A stretch of DNA of 27,056 nucleotides, taken from positions 1 through 27,056 of the IMG/VR virus record IMGVR_UViG_3300010883_000345. One strand, given 5' to 3'. Below the pieces are notes generated by a model. It saw nothing but the letters and a program-made list of their open reading frames with translations, was not told where the DNA came from and did no database searches. Each line of letters begins with the position of its first letter. Position 1 is the first letter of the stretch. A program made the translations under genes and the position numbers. The DNA is from a virus. Of this stretch, positions 2,813 through 23,947 are shown in pieces.

Positions 2813-3241
2813 ATGAAACTCGCATCCCTTAACATAAAACATGAGAAACTTCTTAATGAATATGTGAAATATCTTCAGGGGGTGGCTTATGAAGCAACAG
2901 AATTAAGCGCTCCTAATAAATTTGAAGAATTTAATGAAATTTTACATAATATTATAAACTATACTAATGCCTTTCAGAAAATAGTAAAAGATTCTAAAAG
3001 AATTAGTGAGTGGGTGTATATGCCTCCTAATTTAATGCTATATGCGTGTATGGGATTTTTATCAGGAATAAAAAATAAAAAAAATAAAATATTGATAGAT
3101 GAACTTTCTGAAAATTTATTTGAAAAGACAGTAGATTTTGTGGGAGAAACAGCAGATATATTAGATTCTATAAAAACAAAAAGAATGGCAGAGGAAAAAA
3201 TTAAAATAATTCAAAAAGAAAGAAATGAGTATAACAGTTAG
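2813..3241 (+). CDS. Hypothetical protein upstream of tail chaperone (142 aa)
   Basis: A mostly helical, soluble-looking protein. The C-terminal 25 residues are rich in Lys and Glu (KTKRMAEEKIKIIQKERNE) and may form a short coiled coil. No catalytic motif or membrane segment is evident; the WVYMPPNLMLYACMGFL stretch near residue 67 is hydrophobic but too broken for a clear membrane helix. Its end overlaps the start of the next gene by 17 bases, suggesting translational coupling with the tail chaperone. I do not recognise the family; a tail-assembly accessory role is a guess from position. Confidence 0.7.
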   Translation: MKLASLNIKHEKLLNEYVKYLQGVAYEATELSAPNKFEEFNEILHNIINYTNAFQKIVKDSKRISEWVYMPPNLMLYACMGFLSGIKNKKNKILIDELSENLFEKTVDFVGETADILDSIKTKRMAEEKIKIIQKERNEYNS

Positions 3242-3926
3242 AGTTAAGAGAGATGATGAATCTATAGATTTTCAAGTGCCTACTGGATGGGAGGAAATAA
3301 CTTTGCAGCATTGGGGAGAGTTAGCGTACATCATCAAAAAACATCAGAATGACGCAAAATTGAAACAAAACTCTTTAGATGAAAGGTTTGCTTTAGATGA
3401 TGAGTCAGATTACGAAAAATTAACGGAAGATGTTAAGTTTGTTAATGAACTCCATCTAAATAGAGATATATTTTGCTATTTATCAGGGTTAGATAAAGAG
3501 GATATGAAATATGTTGATATGGAGCAGGTTATTCATGTTATTAATACTATTGGGATTCTAACGGAAGAATACAAACCAACAGGGATGACATCTTTTGAAT
3601 GTGATGGAGAAACATATTACTTCCCTGCAGAATTTTTAAAAAACAATACTTATGGAGATTATATTGAGGCTACTCAATTAGATATGTATATTGATTCAAT
3701 GAAAAACGGTAAGTATGATGTTTTACCAGAGCAGATGGCAATATTATGCAAGAAAATAGGCGAAGAATATGACGAAGATAAGATAGCAGAGAAAACAGAA
3801 AAATTTAAGCAATTAAAAATGGACATTATATTTGAGTTCGCTTTTTTTTTGACTCAGCGCAGCGAAAACTTGCTGAAACATTCAAGTACATATTTGGAGA
3901 AAAACGTGAATCTCTCATGGCAGTAA
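3225..3926 (+). CDS. Putative tail assembly chaperone, zero-frame product
   Basis: A soluble 233-aa protein rich in acidic residues and helices, beginning with a short beta-like segment (MSITVRVKRDDESIDFQVP). Its closing region contains a run of nine T at 3842-3850, and the next frame, at -1, is open from a TGA at 3833 onward through 4165. This is the arrangement of lambda G and G-T, where the short product and the frameshifted product bind the tape measure protein during tail assembly. The zero-frame tail after the slippery site is 25 residues. Family assignment rests on this gene architecture, not on recognised sequence motifs. Confidence 0.65.
   Translation: MSITVRVKRDDESIDFQVPTGWEEITLQHWGELAYIIKKHQNDAKLKQNSLDERFALDDESDYEKLTEDVKFVNELHLNRDIFCYLSGLDKEDMKYVDMEQVIHVINTIGILTEEYKPTGMTSFECDGETYYFPAEFLKNNTYGDYIEATQLDMYIDSMKNGKYDVLPEQMAILCKKIGEEYDEDKIAEKTEKFKQLKMDIIFEFAFFLTQRSENLLKHSSTYLEKNVNLSWQ
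3842..3850 (+). promoter_or_regulatory. Candidate -1 ribosomal frameshift site (T9)
   Basis: Nine consecutive T are read GC-T TTT TTT TTG in the zero frame, so both T-TTT-TTT and T-TTT-TTG fit the X-XXY-YYZ rule. The -1 frame has a TGA at 3833-3835 and is then open to 4165. Downstream, TCAGC (3854-3858) can pair with GCTGA (3872-3876), and ACTT (3868-3871) with AAGT (3884-3887), giving a weak H-type pseudoknot. Transcriptional slippage on T9 would give a similar product. A miscounted homopolymer cannot be excluded from sequence alone. Confidence 0.7.
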
Positions 3927-4165
3927 AAACAAAAGGGTTATTTGATATATACATTAAGCCTTTTGGATGGTTAAATAGCCTTTATGTCTTAGCTGAAAAA
4001 GGGGTTTTCAATAAAGAAGGGGATAATGGCATAGATAGTGTAAAAAATACTAATCTATACAAGGTAATGACTTATTTAAGTTGGATATCTGCAAAAAATG
4101 AATATGAATCAAAGGTTTCAGAAAAAATATCAAAAGACCAAGCTAATACAATGCAAGTAAAATAG
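3848..4165 (+). CDS. Tail assembly chaperone, -1 frame extension (GT-like)
   Basis: This is the -1 frame region joined to the preceding gene by frameshifting. Read from the slip it adds 105 residues starting FDSAQRKLAETFKYIFGEK, giving a predicted fusion of about 313 aa. The 22 codons between the slip and ATG 3917 look like ordinary helical protein, which supports translation through them and not only from 3917. Free initiation at ATG 3917 would give an 82-aa protein beginning MAVKTKGLFDIYIKPFGWLN. By analogy with lambda gpT the extension would recruit tail tube subunits. The tape measure gene is about 9 kb downstream, further away than usual. Confidence 0.65.
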   Translation, partial: FDSAQRKLAETFKYIFGEKRESLMAVKTKGLFDIYIKPFGWLNSLYVLAEKGVFNKEGDNGIDSVKNTNLYKVMTYLSWISAKNEYESKVSEKISKDQANTMQVK

Positions 4166-4180
4166 AAAAAATAAATAAAT

Positions 4181-6106
4181 ATGCCTTTAGGAACACCAAT
4201 AAAATTAACAGATATAGTCCAAGTAATGAAGGACAAATGGGTTTTTGGGGATAAATTCTTTGGATATACAGAAGAATTTAACGATAACCATAACACGCAG
4301 TATCCATCAATGCTAATTACACCTCCTACATCAGTATTCCCAGAGGTAGGATTAAATAATGGGTGGGAAGAATATACTTTTGAGATTTATTTTTCAGATT
4401 TATACAATAGAACAACACAAGCGAACGAGGAGATAGACCAAAGATGGGAGAATTTACAGGATTTAGCAACTGAATGGCTAAATGAGTTCTTAAAATTCTA
4501 TCAAGATGTAGCTCCAATCCTTGCTTTCTTACAAGATGAAAGCGTAATGATAGAGAGAAGCAAGGAAGTTGCTAATGACCAACTGCTTCAACTGAAACTA
4601 ACCTTCACTTGGAGAGTAATGAGTATGTGTTTTAGACCTCAATCTACTTCCCCTAATCAAATTCCTAACTTAGCGATATGGTTAAGAGCAGATAGTGATG
4701 TTACTTATAGCACAGCGACAAAACAAGTTTCTGCTTGGGCAGACCAATCAGGAAATAGTAATGATGTGGCTCAAACAACCTCAGCAGACCAACCTAAAAG
4801 ATATACTTATGATGGGGCAAGTGATAAAACAAGAATTGAATTTGATGGGACTACAGATAATTTTGTTTCAGATTCAAATAGTCCTATAACTACAGATTTT
4901 ACAATATTTACAGTAGCACAAGCAGTCCCCGTTACTCCTGCTTTTACAAACACTTATTCAACATTCTTTGATATAACTGCTCCTGCTACTTCCTGTGATA
5001 TAGGTAATCCTGCAGGTGGAGCGGGTGGTCAATTATTTTCATTTACAGATGGGGCTAATAATGACCAACCTTTTAGTATTTCGGTGTGGTCAAATATAGA
5101 CCCTACAACTGCTTATCGTGGGTGGATAGATAAAAATGATATTGTTGGAATGCAAAGAGAGTACACCTTTAAGCCTGAATACTCATCAGGGTATATTAGT
5201 TTTGTGCTATATGATAATATTGGAGGTGGACATCTATACAATAGGGTTACTGTAGGGGCTGCTGCCGAGCAAGGGGAATGGCATCACTATTGCGCTACTT
5301 ATGATGGAAGTGGATTAGCTACAGGAATGAAAATTTATATAGATGGAGTGGAAAGCCAAGACCATCAAAGCGCATCAGGGGTTTATAATGGGATGCAATT
5401 AACAACATCTCCCTTTGAGGTTGGTCAGGGGGGTGCTAACCCTATGAAGGGACATCTTGATGAGGCAAGTATGTTTGATGCAGAATTAAGTCAATCAGAT
5501 GTTACTGAATTATATAATTTAGGAAATCCTACTGATTTAATAACATCAACACCTAACGCAAATTTAATTGGTTGGTGGAGAATGGGAGATGGAGCAACCT
5601 ATCCAACAATCCCTGATGCTAGTACAAATAGTAATGATGGAACATTACTTAATCTAACTCCAGAGGCTATTCAAGCCTTCGCTCCAAATTCTGAACAAGC
5701 TGCTTATTTTACTTATGAATTAGGAAATATTAAGCTGTGTTTAGGTAGTTCATCTGAAAGATTGTATTGCCATATTGCTGATGCTACTGCTATAGCAGGA
5801 GATTGGAACGCAAGATTTATATGGGATGGAGATACTTCACAATATCATATAGCAACAATGCAATTAGATTCATCTACAACAAATTTATTCTTACAGTATA
5901 ATGACAGCACAAGTCAGCAAGATGTAATGCTAAATTATGACCCCGCAACAACTTTTAATGCAGCTAAGTTTGAGATTGGACACGGAACACATCTAGGGTA
6001 TTTAGGTGGAGGTATGCAAGAGGTTATAGTTTTCAATAGAGCGATAACTGCTGCGGAGATAGAAACAGTAAAAAATTATTTAAATATGAAATATCAAATA
6101 TATTAA
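4181..6106 (+). CDS. Tail protein with nested LamG-like domains (641 aa)
   Basis: Residues 1-155 form a compact alpha/beta region (MPLGTPIKLTDIVQVMKD...) of the kind used for small tail-completion proteins. Residues 161-265 begin a LamG/concanavalin-type jelly roll (NLAIWLRAD, VSAWADQSGNSND, IEFDGTTD, DFTIFTVA). That fold ends only at 503-641, with its typical closing motif EVIVFNRAITAAEIETVKNYL. Between them, residues about 266-502 make up a second, complete LamG domain: QPFSISVW, EWHHYCATYDGS, MKIYIDGV, GHLDEASMFDAELSQSDV and GWWRMGDGATYPTIPDAS. LamG folds bind glycans, so host-surface recognition on the tail is likely. The leader is AAATAAATAAAT before ATG. Confidence 0.8.
   Translation: MPLGTPIKLTDIVQVMKDKWVFGDKFFGYTEEFNDNHNTQYPSMLITPPTSVFPEVGLNNGWEEYTFEIYFSDLYNRTTQANEEIDQRWENLQDLATEWLNEFLKFYQDVAPILAFLQDESVMIERSKEVANDQLLQLKLTFTWRVMSMCFRPQSTSPNQIPNLAIWLRADSDVTYSTATKQVSAWADQSGNSNDVAQTTSADQPKRYTYDGASDKTRIEFDGTTDNFVSDSNSPITTDFTIFTVAQAVPVTPAFTNTYSTFFDITAPATSCDIGNPAGGAGGQLFSFTDGANNDQPFSISVWSNIDPTTAYRGWIDKNDIVGMQREYTFKPEYSSGYISFVLYDNIGGGHLYNRVTVGAAAEQGEWHHYCATYDGSGLATGMKIYIDGVESQDHQSASGVYNGMQLTTSPFEVGQGGANPMKGHLDEASMFDAELSQSDVTELYNLGNPTDLITSTPNANLIGWWRMGDGATYPTIPDASTNSNDGTLLNLTPEAIQAFAPNSEQAAYFTYELGNIKLCLGSSSERLYCHIADATAIAGDWNARFIWDGDTSQYHIATMQLDSSTTNLFLQYNDSTSQQDVMLNYDPATTFNAAKFEIGHGTHLGYLGGGMQEVIVFNRAITAAEIETVKNYLNMKYQIY
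4976..5686 (+). other. Inserted inner LamG domain within tail gene
   Basis: This marks the DNA coding for the inner lectin-like domain (residues about 266-502). Removing it brings STFFDI and the QAAYFTYELGNIKL segment together, restoring what looks like one uninterrupted outer LamG fold. Reading frame is kept across both junctions. Boundaries are estimated to within about ten codons from motif positions. Confidence 0.6.
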
Positions 6107-13216: not shown

Positions 13217-16200
13217 ATGGCAGAAAAAATAGCATACGAAATAGAGATAAAAAATCTCACGCAAGTAACTAAGCTTAAGGATGAATTAAAGAAGCTAAGA
13301 AAGCAAAATAAGCTTCTTGAAAAGGATACTAAACAAAATACTAAAGCAGGTAGAATTGCTGCCAAGCAATATGATATAAATGCTAAAGCTATTGGAAATA
13401 AATCTACAAAGCTTAGGGTTTTAAATAAAGAATTAAGAGGCTCTACAACAGTAACAAAAAAAGCTACCAAGAGTAACAATAGTATGGCGAAGCAGTTTAT
13501 TAAAGGGGCGGCAGCTATTGGTATTGTTGTTGGTGCATTTAGAGCTGTAAATAGAATAGTAAGTTCTGTTGTTAATGTTTTTACAGAGTTTGAATTTGTA
13601 ATGGCTAAAGTTAATGCTGTGTCAGGCGCAACTGAAAAAGAGTTTTCGGCATTAACAGAAACAGCAGAGGAATTAGGTAGAACAACTTTCTTTACAGCAG
13701 CACAGGTTGGAGAGCTTATGTTAAATTTCTCTAAATTAGGATTTACTGCTTCTGAAATACAAGATGCCGTACAGCCAACTCTTGATTTAGCAACAGCAAC
13801 AGGTAGTGATTTAGCAAGAGCAGCATTAGTTGCAGGTGCAGCAGTTAGAGGATTTGGATTAGATGCTAGTGAAACACAAAGGGTAGTTGATGTGATGGCT
13901 GTATCGTTTAGTAGTTCCGCTATGAATATTGAGAAGTGGCAAACATCTATGACAAAGGTTGCTCCGATTGCAAAAGCAGCAGGATTCTCTATTGAAGATA
14001 CTGCAGCAATAATGTCAAAATTAACGGATTCAGGTATTGAGGCTTCTATTGCAGGTACATCTTTAAGAAATATATTACTTAAAATGCAAGACCCTACATC
14101 AGAACTTTCTATGAGGTTTGGGAAAACAATTCACTCTTTAGATGAGTTAGTACCTGCTATGAAGCAGTTTGTTGCTGAGGGTGGTAGTATGGCTGATGTT
14201 ATGGAGGTGGTTGATTTAAGACAGGCAGCAGCTTTTGAGCAAATGCTTACAACTGCAGATGGTACTTTAGCGTTAAGAGATTCTTTGTTAGAGGCAAATG
14301 GAGAAGGGGCAAGAATGGCTGCAATAATTGGGGACACATTACAGGGAGCGTTCTTAAAATTCACTTCAGCTATGCAAGGGTTAGGAATAAGTATAATGAA
14401 GGATTTTGCAGGAAATTTGCAAGAGGCAGTAGAAGGGGTGGCAGTATTTATGAATAAACTTGCTGCAAATAGTAAGACAATAGTAAAGGTTATAAATGGG
14501 CTTACAAAACTTATAAAATGGTTTGGTATATATAAAATTACGCTTCTAGCTGTTTCAGGATATACTATTGCTTACAATAAGGTACTAGTAATACAAAGGT
14601 GGATGGCTATAAAAGCGGCAGCAGGAATGACGACTTTAGCTACAGCAACTCTGGTTGCAAAGAGGGCTATTCAGTCACTTATAAGCGCTACAGGGATAGG
14701 GTTAGCTATAGTTGTATTATCAGAATTAATCCCTTGGCTGCTAAAAACTGAAGAAGAAACCGTAAAAGTTGCTGATGCAACTGAGGTTCTTATAGGAAAA
14801 TATCAAGATTCCATAAAGCCAATAGAAGATTTAAAACAAAAGGGAAAAGAATTGATACGGGTTAAAACTTTGATGAATGAGATGTTAGATGAGGAAGGGA
14901 ATTTATTAGACAATACTTCGGTTAATCAAAAAATATATAATAAATATAAAGGTCAGGCCGCTATCTTAATGAGAGCTGTAAATAAAGAGTTAAAAGATAA
15001 TGACCAAGCTTTAATAACTGAAAAAACATCTATTGATGGGCTGTCAAGCTCTATTGATGCTTTGACTGAATCACTAACAACCCAAGCATTAGTAAAGGGA
15101 TTTACAAGTGCAATAGAAGGAATTGCAGAATTAGCAGCTAACGCTACTATAGCACAAGAAAAAATGAAGTCATACCTTGCCGTTCAAAAGGAAACTCTAA
15201 CTGGCGACATAGGAACTGATATGGCGGATATGACAGATGCAAAATTTGTTGAGATGATAGATTTCTTTGAAAAACTCGGTGTTGTTGCGATAGAGGCTGC
15301 GGATGGCACGGTTCATTTCATAGGTGGGTTTAAAGAAATGCAAGATATTATAACAGGTGCAGGGTTTAAGGATTGGGATGATTTAAAGAGCGCTATAAGT
15401 GATACTGAGCAAAATACATTAGCCGTAACAAAAGCTTTTGAGAGGTTAGGTTTAGATTTTGACTTGCTTAGTACAAAGTTTAAAGGAAAAGGTGATGGGC
15501 CTGACCTTGGCAATACAGTAACTAATTGGGCTGAACTAACGAAATTAGCAATAAATCAAGTTAAGCAGAGCAAATTAGAAAGCATGATGACTGACGAAGA
15601 ATGGTTAGAGAATTGTAAATCTGTTAAAACGGAAGCTGTTATGACAGAAGTAGAATATAAGGACAAGGTATTGGAAGTTAGAGCGACTATGCTTGAAAAG
15701 GAACTAGCAGATACAAATACAACTGAGAAAAGGATAACACAAATAAAGCAACAGCAGTTAGATATTCAGTTACAGCAAAAGGACTCATCTTTTAGGAAAG
15801 AGATGGAATTAATAAAAACTAACTATGATGCGGAGGCCAACATTATAAGGGATGCTTATACTGTTAATGGAAGGGTAACTGAAGAAGGTAATAGGCTTTT
15901 GTTAGAGTTGGAAATACAACACTTACTTGCTAAAGCAGGGTTGCACAAGGACTACGGGAAAACTTTATTAGGAGTAAATGGTCAAATAGCAACTAGCAAT
16001 AGAAGCCTTCATGAATCAAATATGAGGCAGATACAGGAGCAACTTGGAGCTATGAGTGGTCTTGGTGGGGCTTTACAAACTTTAGCAGGAGATAATGAAG
16101 CGTTAAATGGAGTTAAAGAAGCGGGGATAGCAATTTCAGAAGCAGCATCTATAGCACAAGCATTTTTAACATTACAAGAGAGTTTGAATACTTTAGGGAT

Positions 16201-16852
16201 GGTAAAAAACAATGTAGCTAAAGCGCTTGGAATTGGCCTTAAAACTACAGATGTAGCCCTTACAAATACAGATTCAGTATCTACAGCATTAAACACTACA
16301 GCAACCACTACAAATACGGGTGCGGTTATTGGTAATACAATGGCAGATGCAGTTTCACTACCTGTTTTAGGTACTAAAGCAATTTTAAAACAAGGTGGTG
16401 GTGACCCTTATACGGCATTCTTTCGTATTATTGCGATGATAGCTCTAATAGCAGGAGTTATGAGTATGTTTATGAAGAAGGGGGGTCTTATTCCTAGTGG
16501 TAAAGAAGGAAAGTTTGCTAAAGGTGGTATGGTTAGGGGTAAATCCCACGCACAAGGCGGAGAGAAGTTTGCTGTAGGGGGTAGGGTGGTAGAGCTAGAA
16601 GGAGGAGAGGCTGTAATAAACAAAAGAAGTACGGCTATGTATAAAGACCAACTATCTTCTATGAACGCAGCAGGGGGAGGAAATAGATTTGCTGATGGCG
16701 GACTATTAAATATGCCTTCTTTTGCAACTGCTTCTTTTGGTGCATTAAGTGGTGGTAGTGGAGGTAGCACTCAAAAAGTAATAGTAGTAGAATCAGATAT
16801 AACAAAGACGCAGCGAAAAGTAAATGTGATAGAGGCTGCTGCAACAATTTAA
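13217..16852 (+). CDS. Tail tape measure protein
   Basis: The 1211-aa protein sets tail length. Residues 1-80 are a Lys-rich coiled coil. Residues about 120-370 match the TP901-type tape measure core (EFEFVMAKVNAVSG, ELGRTTFFTAAQVGELM, GFGLDASETQRVVDVM, IAGTSLRNILLKM). Hydrophobic segments near 95-120, 425-445 and 480-510 are typical of the family. Near the C-terminus are hydrophobic stretch IIAMIALIAGVMSMFM and Gly-rich repeats (GGLIPSG, AKGGMVRG, AVGGRVVELEGGEAVI, ADGGLL) commonly seen at tape measure ends. At the usual 0.15 nm per residue the tail would be roughly 180 nm. It is the largest gene in the window. Confidence 0.93.
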   Translation: MAEKIAYEIEIKNLTQVTKLKDELKKLRKQNKLLEKDTKQNTKAGRIAAKQYDINAKAIGNKSTKLRVLNKELRGSTTVTKKATKSNNSMAKQFIKGAAAIGIVVGAFRAVNRIVSSVVNVFTEFEFVMAKVNAVSGATEKEFSALTETAEELGRTTFFTAAQVGELMLNFSKLGFTASEIQDAVQPTLDLATATGSDLARAALVAGAAVRGFGLDASETQRVVDVMAVSFSSSAMNIEKWQTSMTKVAPIAKAAGFSIEDTAAIMSKLTDSGIEASIAGTSLRNILLKMQDPTSELSMRFGKTIHSLDELVPAMKQFVAEGGSMADVMEVVDLRQAAAFEQMLTTADGTLALRDSLLEANGEGARMAAIIGDTLQGAFLKFTSAMQGLGISIMKDFAGNLQEAVEGVAVFMNKLAANSKTIVKVINGLTKLIKWFGIYKITLLAVSGYTIAYNKVLVIQRWMAIKAAAGMTTLATATLVAKRAIQSLISATGIGLAIVVLSELIPWLLKTEEETVKVADATEVLIGKYQDSIKPIEDLKQKGKELIRVKTLMNEMLDEEGNLLDNTSVNQKIYNKYKGQAAILMRAVNKELKDNDQALITEKTSIDGLSSSIDALTESLTTQALVKGFTSAIEGIAELAANATIAQEKMKSYLAVQKETLTGDIGTDMADMTDAKFVEMIDFFEKLGVVAIEAADGTVHFIGGFKEMQDIITGAGFKDWDDLKSAISDTEQNTLAVTKAFERLGLDFDLLSTKFKGKGDGPDLGNTVTNWAELTKLAINQVKQSKLESMMTDEEWLENCKSVKTEAVMTEVEYKDKVLEVRATMLEKELADTNTTEKRITQIKQQQLDIQLQQKDSSFRKEMELIKTNYDAEANIIRDAYTVNGRVTEEGNRLLLELEIQHLLAKAGLHKDYGKTLLGVNGQIATSNRSLHESNMRQIQEQLGAMSGLGGALQTLAGDNEALNGVKEAGIAISEAASIAQAFLTLQESLNTLGMVKNNVAKALGIGLKTTDVALTNTDSVSTALNTTATTTNTGAVIGNTMADAVSLPVLGTKAILKQGGGDPYTAFFRIIAMIALIAGVMSMFMKKGGLIPSGKEGKFAKGGMVRGKSHAQGGEKFAVGGRVVELEGGEAVINKRSTAMYKDQLSSMNAAGGGNRFADGGLLNMPSFATASFGALSGGSGGSTQKVIVVESDITKTQRKVNVIEAAATI

Positions 16853-23458: not shown

Positions 23459-23947
23459 ATGGCAGGAACAATACTACAAAGCGATTTATCGGTTACTATA
23501 AATGAAACTATTTCTTTAAATGGGGTGGCTTATGGAAATTCTATGACAAAAACTTTTGCGGGTAATGGAAAGATAGACCAAAGAATAATGACTCTTTCGG
23601 GTAAAGGAGGGGAAGGGGGAGTGTTCACAACTATCCTTAAATTATCTAGTGCAGACGCTAGAGGTCAAGTTGTTGTAGCTGACTACTCTTATTTTAGAAT
23701 TACAAATACTGACGATACTAATGCTCTAATATTAGAACTATACAATGGCGTTAATTATATATATATTAATGTTGAGGCAGGAGAAACATTTTTATTGATG
23801 AGTCCAGATATTGCTAGATTAGCAGCTTCGGGATTGGTTACTTTTGCTGATATTCAGGAAATAAATGGACAGAGTGCTAACGAAACAGAGAGCATAGATA
23901 TTGAATATGTTGCGGTTACTAAGGGTGGTATAGGAGAAGGAGAGTAG
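23459..23947 (+). CDS. Hypothetical virion protein (162 aa)
   Basis: A beta-rich soluble protein (YFRITNTDDTNALILELYNGVNYIYINVEAG is a clear run of strands) with a Gly/Glu-rich end (KGGIGEGE). It overlaps by one base with the GTG start of the next small gene (TAGTG). No family recognised; a minor capsid or tail-related jelly-roll protein seems likely from fold pattern and position. Confidence 0.6.
   Translation: MAGTILQSDLSVTINETISLNGVAYGNSMTKTFAGNGKIDQRIMTLSGKGGEGGVFTTILKLSSADARGQVVVADYSYFRITNTDDTNALILELYNGVNYIYINVEAGETFLLMSPDIARLAASGLVTFADIQEINGQSANETESIDIEYVAVTKGGIGEGE

Follow-up and report, generated by a model that had tools for sequence, protein, structure and literature searches.

A conserved run of nine T with an adjacent upstream hairpin joins two reading frames in a family of uncultivated viruses: a candidate site of transcriptional slippage

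The window analyzed here is an entire virus record of 27,056 bp (IMG/VR IMGVR_UViG_3300010883_000345), in which a gene encoding domain A contains a run of nine T (T9), behind which the -1 frame is open and encodes a second domain, B. This locus raises the question of whether A and B are joined into one product and, if so, whether the ribosome or RNA polymerase changes the frame. An initial annotation of this DNA had assumed a ribosomal slip, aided by a downstream pseudoknot and producing a G/GT pair of tail assembly chaperones.

The junction in the window and in its relatives

The positions of the features are collected in Table 1. The T run inside the zero-frame gene, as described earlier, was confirmed in the sequence, and the fused product A-B, earlier put at about 313 aa, is 313 aa in length. 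Domain A consists of about 207 aa ahead of the slip and a 26-aa out-of-frame tail, and two zero-frame heptamers, T_TTT_TTT (3842-3848) and T_TTT_TTG (3845-3851), are found within or at T9. The -1 frame has a TGA at 3833-3835, is open from there to its TAG, and contains 22 codons between T9 and ATG 3917. This upstream stop, which had been noticed before, is present in the window and is not conserved among relatives.

Table 1. Positions of features in the window
Feature	Position	Strand	Remarks
Domain A, zero-frame gene ("G-like", 233 aa)	3225..3926	+	ATG 3225; TAA 3924-3926
5'-adjacent hairpin, GGAC(A)UUA / UGAGUUC	3819..3841	+	-2.7 kcal/mol in the window; 2 nt before T9
Slippery run T9	3842..3850	+	Zero-frame codons GCT TTT TTT TTG (3840-3851)
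Domain B, -1 frame ("T-like")	3851..4165	+	TAG 4163-4165; reached only via slip
ATG in -1 frame	3917..3919	+	Not conserved in relatives; probably no start
Tail tape-measure protein gene	13217..16852	+	phrog_1533, E 4e-57; PF10145

Successive protein-based scans of IMG/VR gave at least 1, 22, 183, and 193 confirmed relatives. Loci found with the pattern GAGTTCNNT9G carry a bias for T9, and the main count was therefore restricted to the 183 unbiased loci found by protein similarity alone. Both A and B are present in 180 of these, and the other three end ahead of B. The 180 loci correspond to 129 distinct junction regions, of which 128 could be parsed; the one whose alignment was unparsed at the junction (L094) also shows T9. 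The order of large terminase, A, B, next gene, and tail genes is constant in the loci examined, and the tape-measure gene is downstream of A-B in every locus long enough to reach it. No tblastn match to A, B, or two distant family members was obtained among named or cultured phages, and no relative was found in the bacterial genomes searched. The nearest counterparts of the large terminase belong to phages of Croceibacter, Chryseobacterium, and Cellulophaga, among others, which makes it likely that the host of the window virus belongs to Bacteroidota. Together, the relatives form a large family of uncultivated viruses whose hosts are bacteria of Bacteroidota type.

All 128 parsed junctions have exactly T9 with B in the -1 frame, and none lacks the run or has T8 or T10; the following base is G in 126 and A in two. 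In 430 kb of coding sequence from 53 related loci, T9 occurs once elsewhere, compared with 53/53 at the junction, and by this count its presence there is more than chance. The initial annotation had suggested that the 22 codons between the slip and ATG 3917 read as normal protein, and the comparison of relatives supports this: the residues encoded by the -1 codons 3851-3916 are conserved (FFFDSAQRK... after the run), and in the overlap, related pairs differ most often at the third position of the -1 frame (43%), which is position 2 of the zero frame.

The run is constrained along its whole length. On the tree, codon 206, which supplies the first T, shows at least 11 changes among AGT, GCT, GGT, and TGT, yet always ends in T (36/36 clusters under 80% nucleotide identity versus 18.6 expected), and the last Phe codon in the -1 frame is TTT in all 36 clusters. 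Judged by this codon usage, the whole of T9 is under selection, and both ends beyond any single heptamer are fixed. When the +1 triplets were read off the junction codons (GAC, GAA, GAG, or AAG), the triplet entered right after T9 was TGA or TAA (126 and 2 of 128 junctions, respectively). The exceptional TGC of one pattern-found locus (L174) occupies the site equivalent to 3850-3852 of the window.

If A and B were two ordinary overlapping genes, with translation of B beginning at ATG 3917, the presence of this codon in the window and of an ATG at +72 or +75 in some relatives would be accounted for. However, ATG 3917 is missing in many relatives. In several, the first ATG, GTG, or TTG comes only deep inside B (in some, the first possible start is at least 150 nt into it), the relatives share no conserved start for the second frame, and the -1 codons ahead of ATG 3917 are conserved. 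A start of B at ATG 3917 was rejected because this ATG is not conserved. A sequencing or indel artefact is difficult to reconcile with an identical T9 in 128 distinct contigs from many metagenomes, and separate genes and artefact together are regarded as highly improbable. The conservation of the -1 codons through the slip, which ATG 3917 does not share, means that a fused product is needed. A programmed frame transition making proteins of 233 and about 313 aa is thus almost certain, in agreement with the earlier proposal that the two frames are joined in the -1 direction at T9.

A conserved hairpin upstream of the run

In the window, a hairpin precedes T9 with pairs 3821-3839, 3822-3838, 3823-3837, 3824-3836, 3826-3835, 3827-3834, and 3828-3833. 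RNAalifold applied to the relatives gave a stem UGGAY...GUUCR that ends 1-2 nt ahead of T9. In the codon-bias test on the same 36 clusters, the pairing base was preferred at the GAC codon (26/36 versus 7.5 expected), the third base C of codon 201 (19/35 versus 3.5), GAG (36/36 versus 13), and TTC (35/36 versus 8.5), and codon 202 in the hairpin loop showed no bias to C; as the sequences are related, binomial p-values from these counts overstate independence. GAA replaces GAG in three sequences, by three changes on the tree, all with GAT, and the pair is kept; the lone TTT in place of TTC gives a G-U pair. Four degenerate codon positions are thus biased toward pairing bases and, judged by codon choice, the hairpin is conserved. 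Covariation is thin, since the encoded amino acids dictate most of the paired bases.

When codons were replaced synonymously according to usage, the hairpin windows were more stable than the shuffled sequences in 44/44 cases (mean z -4.73), while 36 control windows of the gene had a mean z of -0.07 (sd 0.22, minimum -0.55); given such low folding energies, the z values should not be read as normal deviates. The empirical p was below 0.05 in 39 of 54 hairpin windows. The stability of the hairpin across relatives is weak, ranging from -0.5 to -9 kcal/mol, and a search of Rfam gave no match.

A hairpin followed by U9 resembles a terminator in geometry, and the two elements might serve as an intragenic pause or weak terminator tuning the downstream tail genes, with the frame change being secondary. 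The stem is too weak for this, a terminator scan found none, and neither the constant -1 offset between A and B nor the missing start of B would be explained; we consider such a role very unlikely.

Downstream of T9, the pseudoknot proposed previously (TCAGC/GCTGA and ACTT/AAGT) proved not to be conserved: 43% of cells pair, compared with 48% when slid by one column and 45% in shuffles. The folding energy downstream of the run equals that of shuffles (mean z 0.04, 53 relatives), and RNAalifold found no covarying downstream stem in the relatives.

RNA polymerase or ribosome

Bacterial RNA polymerase slips efficiently in vivo on nine As or Ts (PMC5009743), runs of Tn with n>8 are associated with transcriptional realignment (PMC3711429), and a Roseiflexus IS owes its slippage to a 5'-adjacent nascent stem-loop (PMC5009743). 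A homopolymer of nine is common to the Shigella mxiE T-run, Thermus dnaX, the Roseiflexus IS, and the present locus, where a run of at least nine A or T is found at the transition in 128/128 junctions. The conserved 5'-adjacent nascent hairpin of the Roseiflexus IS subtype is also found in the window family, and by analogy the hairpin plus U9 has the geometry of RNA-polymerase slippage. Differing from these known sites, the present one is in a phage tail gene, combines a homopolymer with a hairpin, and is putative as to slippage. Another difference is that the hairpin of the Roseiflexus IS gives 1-nt deletions, whereas the -1 frame here needs a gain of one nucleotide or a loss of two.

The following course of events would be consistent with these features. 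At T9, RNA polymerase would hold a weak rU9:dA9 hybrid, and the nascent-RNA hairpin ending 1-2 nt upstream of the run, abutting the U9 tract like a defanged terminator, would destabilize this hybrid and give mRNAs with an altered number of U. An mRNA with U10 (or U7) would direct A-B via normal translation, one with U9 would direct A with its tail of about 26 aa, and one with U8 would lead to an immediate stop; since in the +1 frame a TGA or TAA comes immediately behind T9, loss of a single U would end translation at once.

The ribosomal alternative is a classical -1 frameshift, in which tandem tRNAs would slip on T_TTT_TTT and/or T_TTT_TTG in a manner similar to lambda G/GT, without a downstream stimulator; we regard it as a serious possibility, a little short of an even one. 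Perfect zero-frame heptamers are present in every relative, with the X_XXY_YYZ form at 3842-3848 in the window, and the Nonlabens phage P12024S described below also has an in-phase T_TTT_TTT. Lambda and other long-tailed phages are known to use a ribosomal -1 shift, and a tested phage tail chaperone cluster gave 6-7% (PMC5009743, PMC3711429). In E. coli, however, ribosomes slip less on U_UUU_UUU than on A_AAA_AAG (PMC5009743). A ribosomal shift needs only T7, yet all nine Ts are fixed at both ends, and the conserved 3' stem-loop or pseudoknot that is usual, though not obligatory, at such sites is missing. The 5' hairpin, at 1-2 nt from the slip site, would sit inside a ribosome paused there with its P site on the run, which would melt it, so that it could not easily act. 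The upstream GAG or GGAG could instead be an internal Shine-Dalgarno-like element; this would leave the bias of the GAC, ATC, and TTC codons unexplained. Bacteroidota make little use of Shine-Dalgarno pairing.

Because the run exceeds the need of a heptamer, its outer Ts are fixed, and the hairpin is on the 5' side, we place transcriptional slippage slightly ahead of a ribosomal shift, and both may occur at T9. Of the mechanism assumed initially, the slip at T9 stands, and the 5' hairpin and fixed 9-nt run fit slippage by RNA polymerase at least as well as slippage by the ribosome. That slippage occurs, as well as its stage and rate, we infer from the observed conservation of T9, the -1 frame, and the hairpin. 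The best explanation, to which we assign about an even chance, is a programmed A / A-B pair, very probably of the G/GT chaperone type, made mainly by transcriptional slippage at T9. The chances are similarly balanced that RNA polymerase rather than the ribosome would set the stoichiometry of tail chaperones in the whole family of Bacteroidota-type phages.

In the literature searched, no phage tail chaperone pair made by transcriptional slippage was found, and to our knowledge this would be the first. Textbooks use the frameshift behind the ratio of phage tail chaperones to illustrate ribosomal recoding. Should a large phage group rely on polymerase slippage with a terminator-like hairpin instead, two separate fields would be joined, and the old question of the product ratio would become testable by counting Us in mRNA. 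The hairpin, T9, and -1 ORF may also be used as a signature for finding missing chaperone fusions in unannotated Bacteroidota phages such as P12024S.

Putative chaperone function, cultured counterparts, and neighbouring genes

The function of A and A-B, likewise judged from comparison with known systems, is likely to be that of a G/GT-type tail assembly chaperone; this is the best functional reading because a two-product architecture is found in a siphophage. The gene set is that of a long-tailed phage with a tape-measure protein. As in lambda G/GT and its HK97-type counterparts, a short protein would be accompanied by a low-level -1 fusion made near the 3' end; a helical C-terminal domain and a siphophage genome with a tape-measure gene are also shared with lambda. 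In contrast, there is no detectable sequence similarity to lambda G/GT, and the slip site combines T9 with a 5' hairpin. A-B (3225-4165) follows the large terminase and lies 9.3 kb before the tape-measure gene (13217), while lambda G/GT is adjacent to it; such adjacency is typical placement rather than a functional criterion, and the displacement is conserved in relatives showing both.

When A and B were modelled apart, the AlphaFold model of A (mean pLDDT 81) had an N-terminal beta hairpin, long helices, and a second hairpin, and that of B (pLDDT 72) had two long helices. In Foldseek, A matched viral proteins without a name and, weakly, proteins of Flavobacterium phage 6H and Nonlabens P12024S; the chaperone matches (N15 GT, E 0.42; another, 0.82) were below significance. 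Searches of Pfam and PHROGs with A and B of the window and with alignments gave chance-level matches only, and PDB gave no meaningful match by sequence or fold, although a missing chaperone fold there proves nothing. The G/GT proposal of the initial annotation is plausible given the siphophage gene set and architecture; these searches gave no significant sequence or fold match to known chaperones, and the pair does not lie beside the tape-measure gene.

Nonlabens (Persicivirga) phages P12024S/L have an unannotated counterpart, in which the large terminase and A are followed by B in the -1 frame joined at T9, as in the window. In P12024S (NC_018271, 23136-23830), T9 at 23578-23586 joins gp38 to a helical -1 domain overlapping gp39. 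This domain shares a W...G.F...V...L..VL.WL..QS-like pattern with B; the similarity is weak (hhalign E 0.003-0.004, low probability), T9 is in another codon phase, gp38 and gp39 are annotated as two hypothetical proteins, and the hairpin upstream of the P12024S run is not significant (p 0.40). In Flavobacterium psychrophilum phages FPSV-F7, 2A, and 23T (Unahavirus), a 293-aa protein is remotely similar to A (hhalign 81%, E 1.3e-5), with the counterpart of B following in order (E 0.007). The two are in one continuous frame in FPSV-F7, and probably likewise in the other 879-nt relatives. Comparison of the FPSV-F7 and 6H loci (L226, 9586-10930, and L230, 204-1085) showed that 6H alone has the frame interrupted, through a 2-nt difference together with stop codons where A and B meet; recombination, error, or another mode of recoding may be the cause.

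The module order at 1273-22160 in the window is unusual: it begins with the terminase and the chaperone-like pair and continues through the tail genes to the tape measure, and the Clp-like protease, the probable capsid, and the probable portal come last, at the far end. The gene at 4181-6106 encodes a conserved N-terminal domain fused to a LamG domain; the label "tail terminator" in PHROGs derives from the LamG portion of the profile and so does not identify the N-terminal domain. In one relative (L140, 1061-2221, minus strand), B continues in-frame into the next gene, with 1161 nt open, so that B may here be naturally fused to the downstream tail protein.
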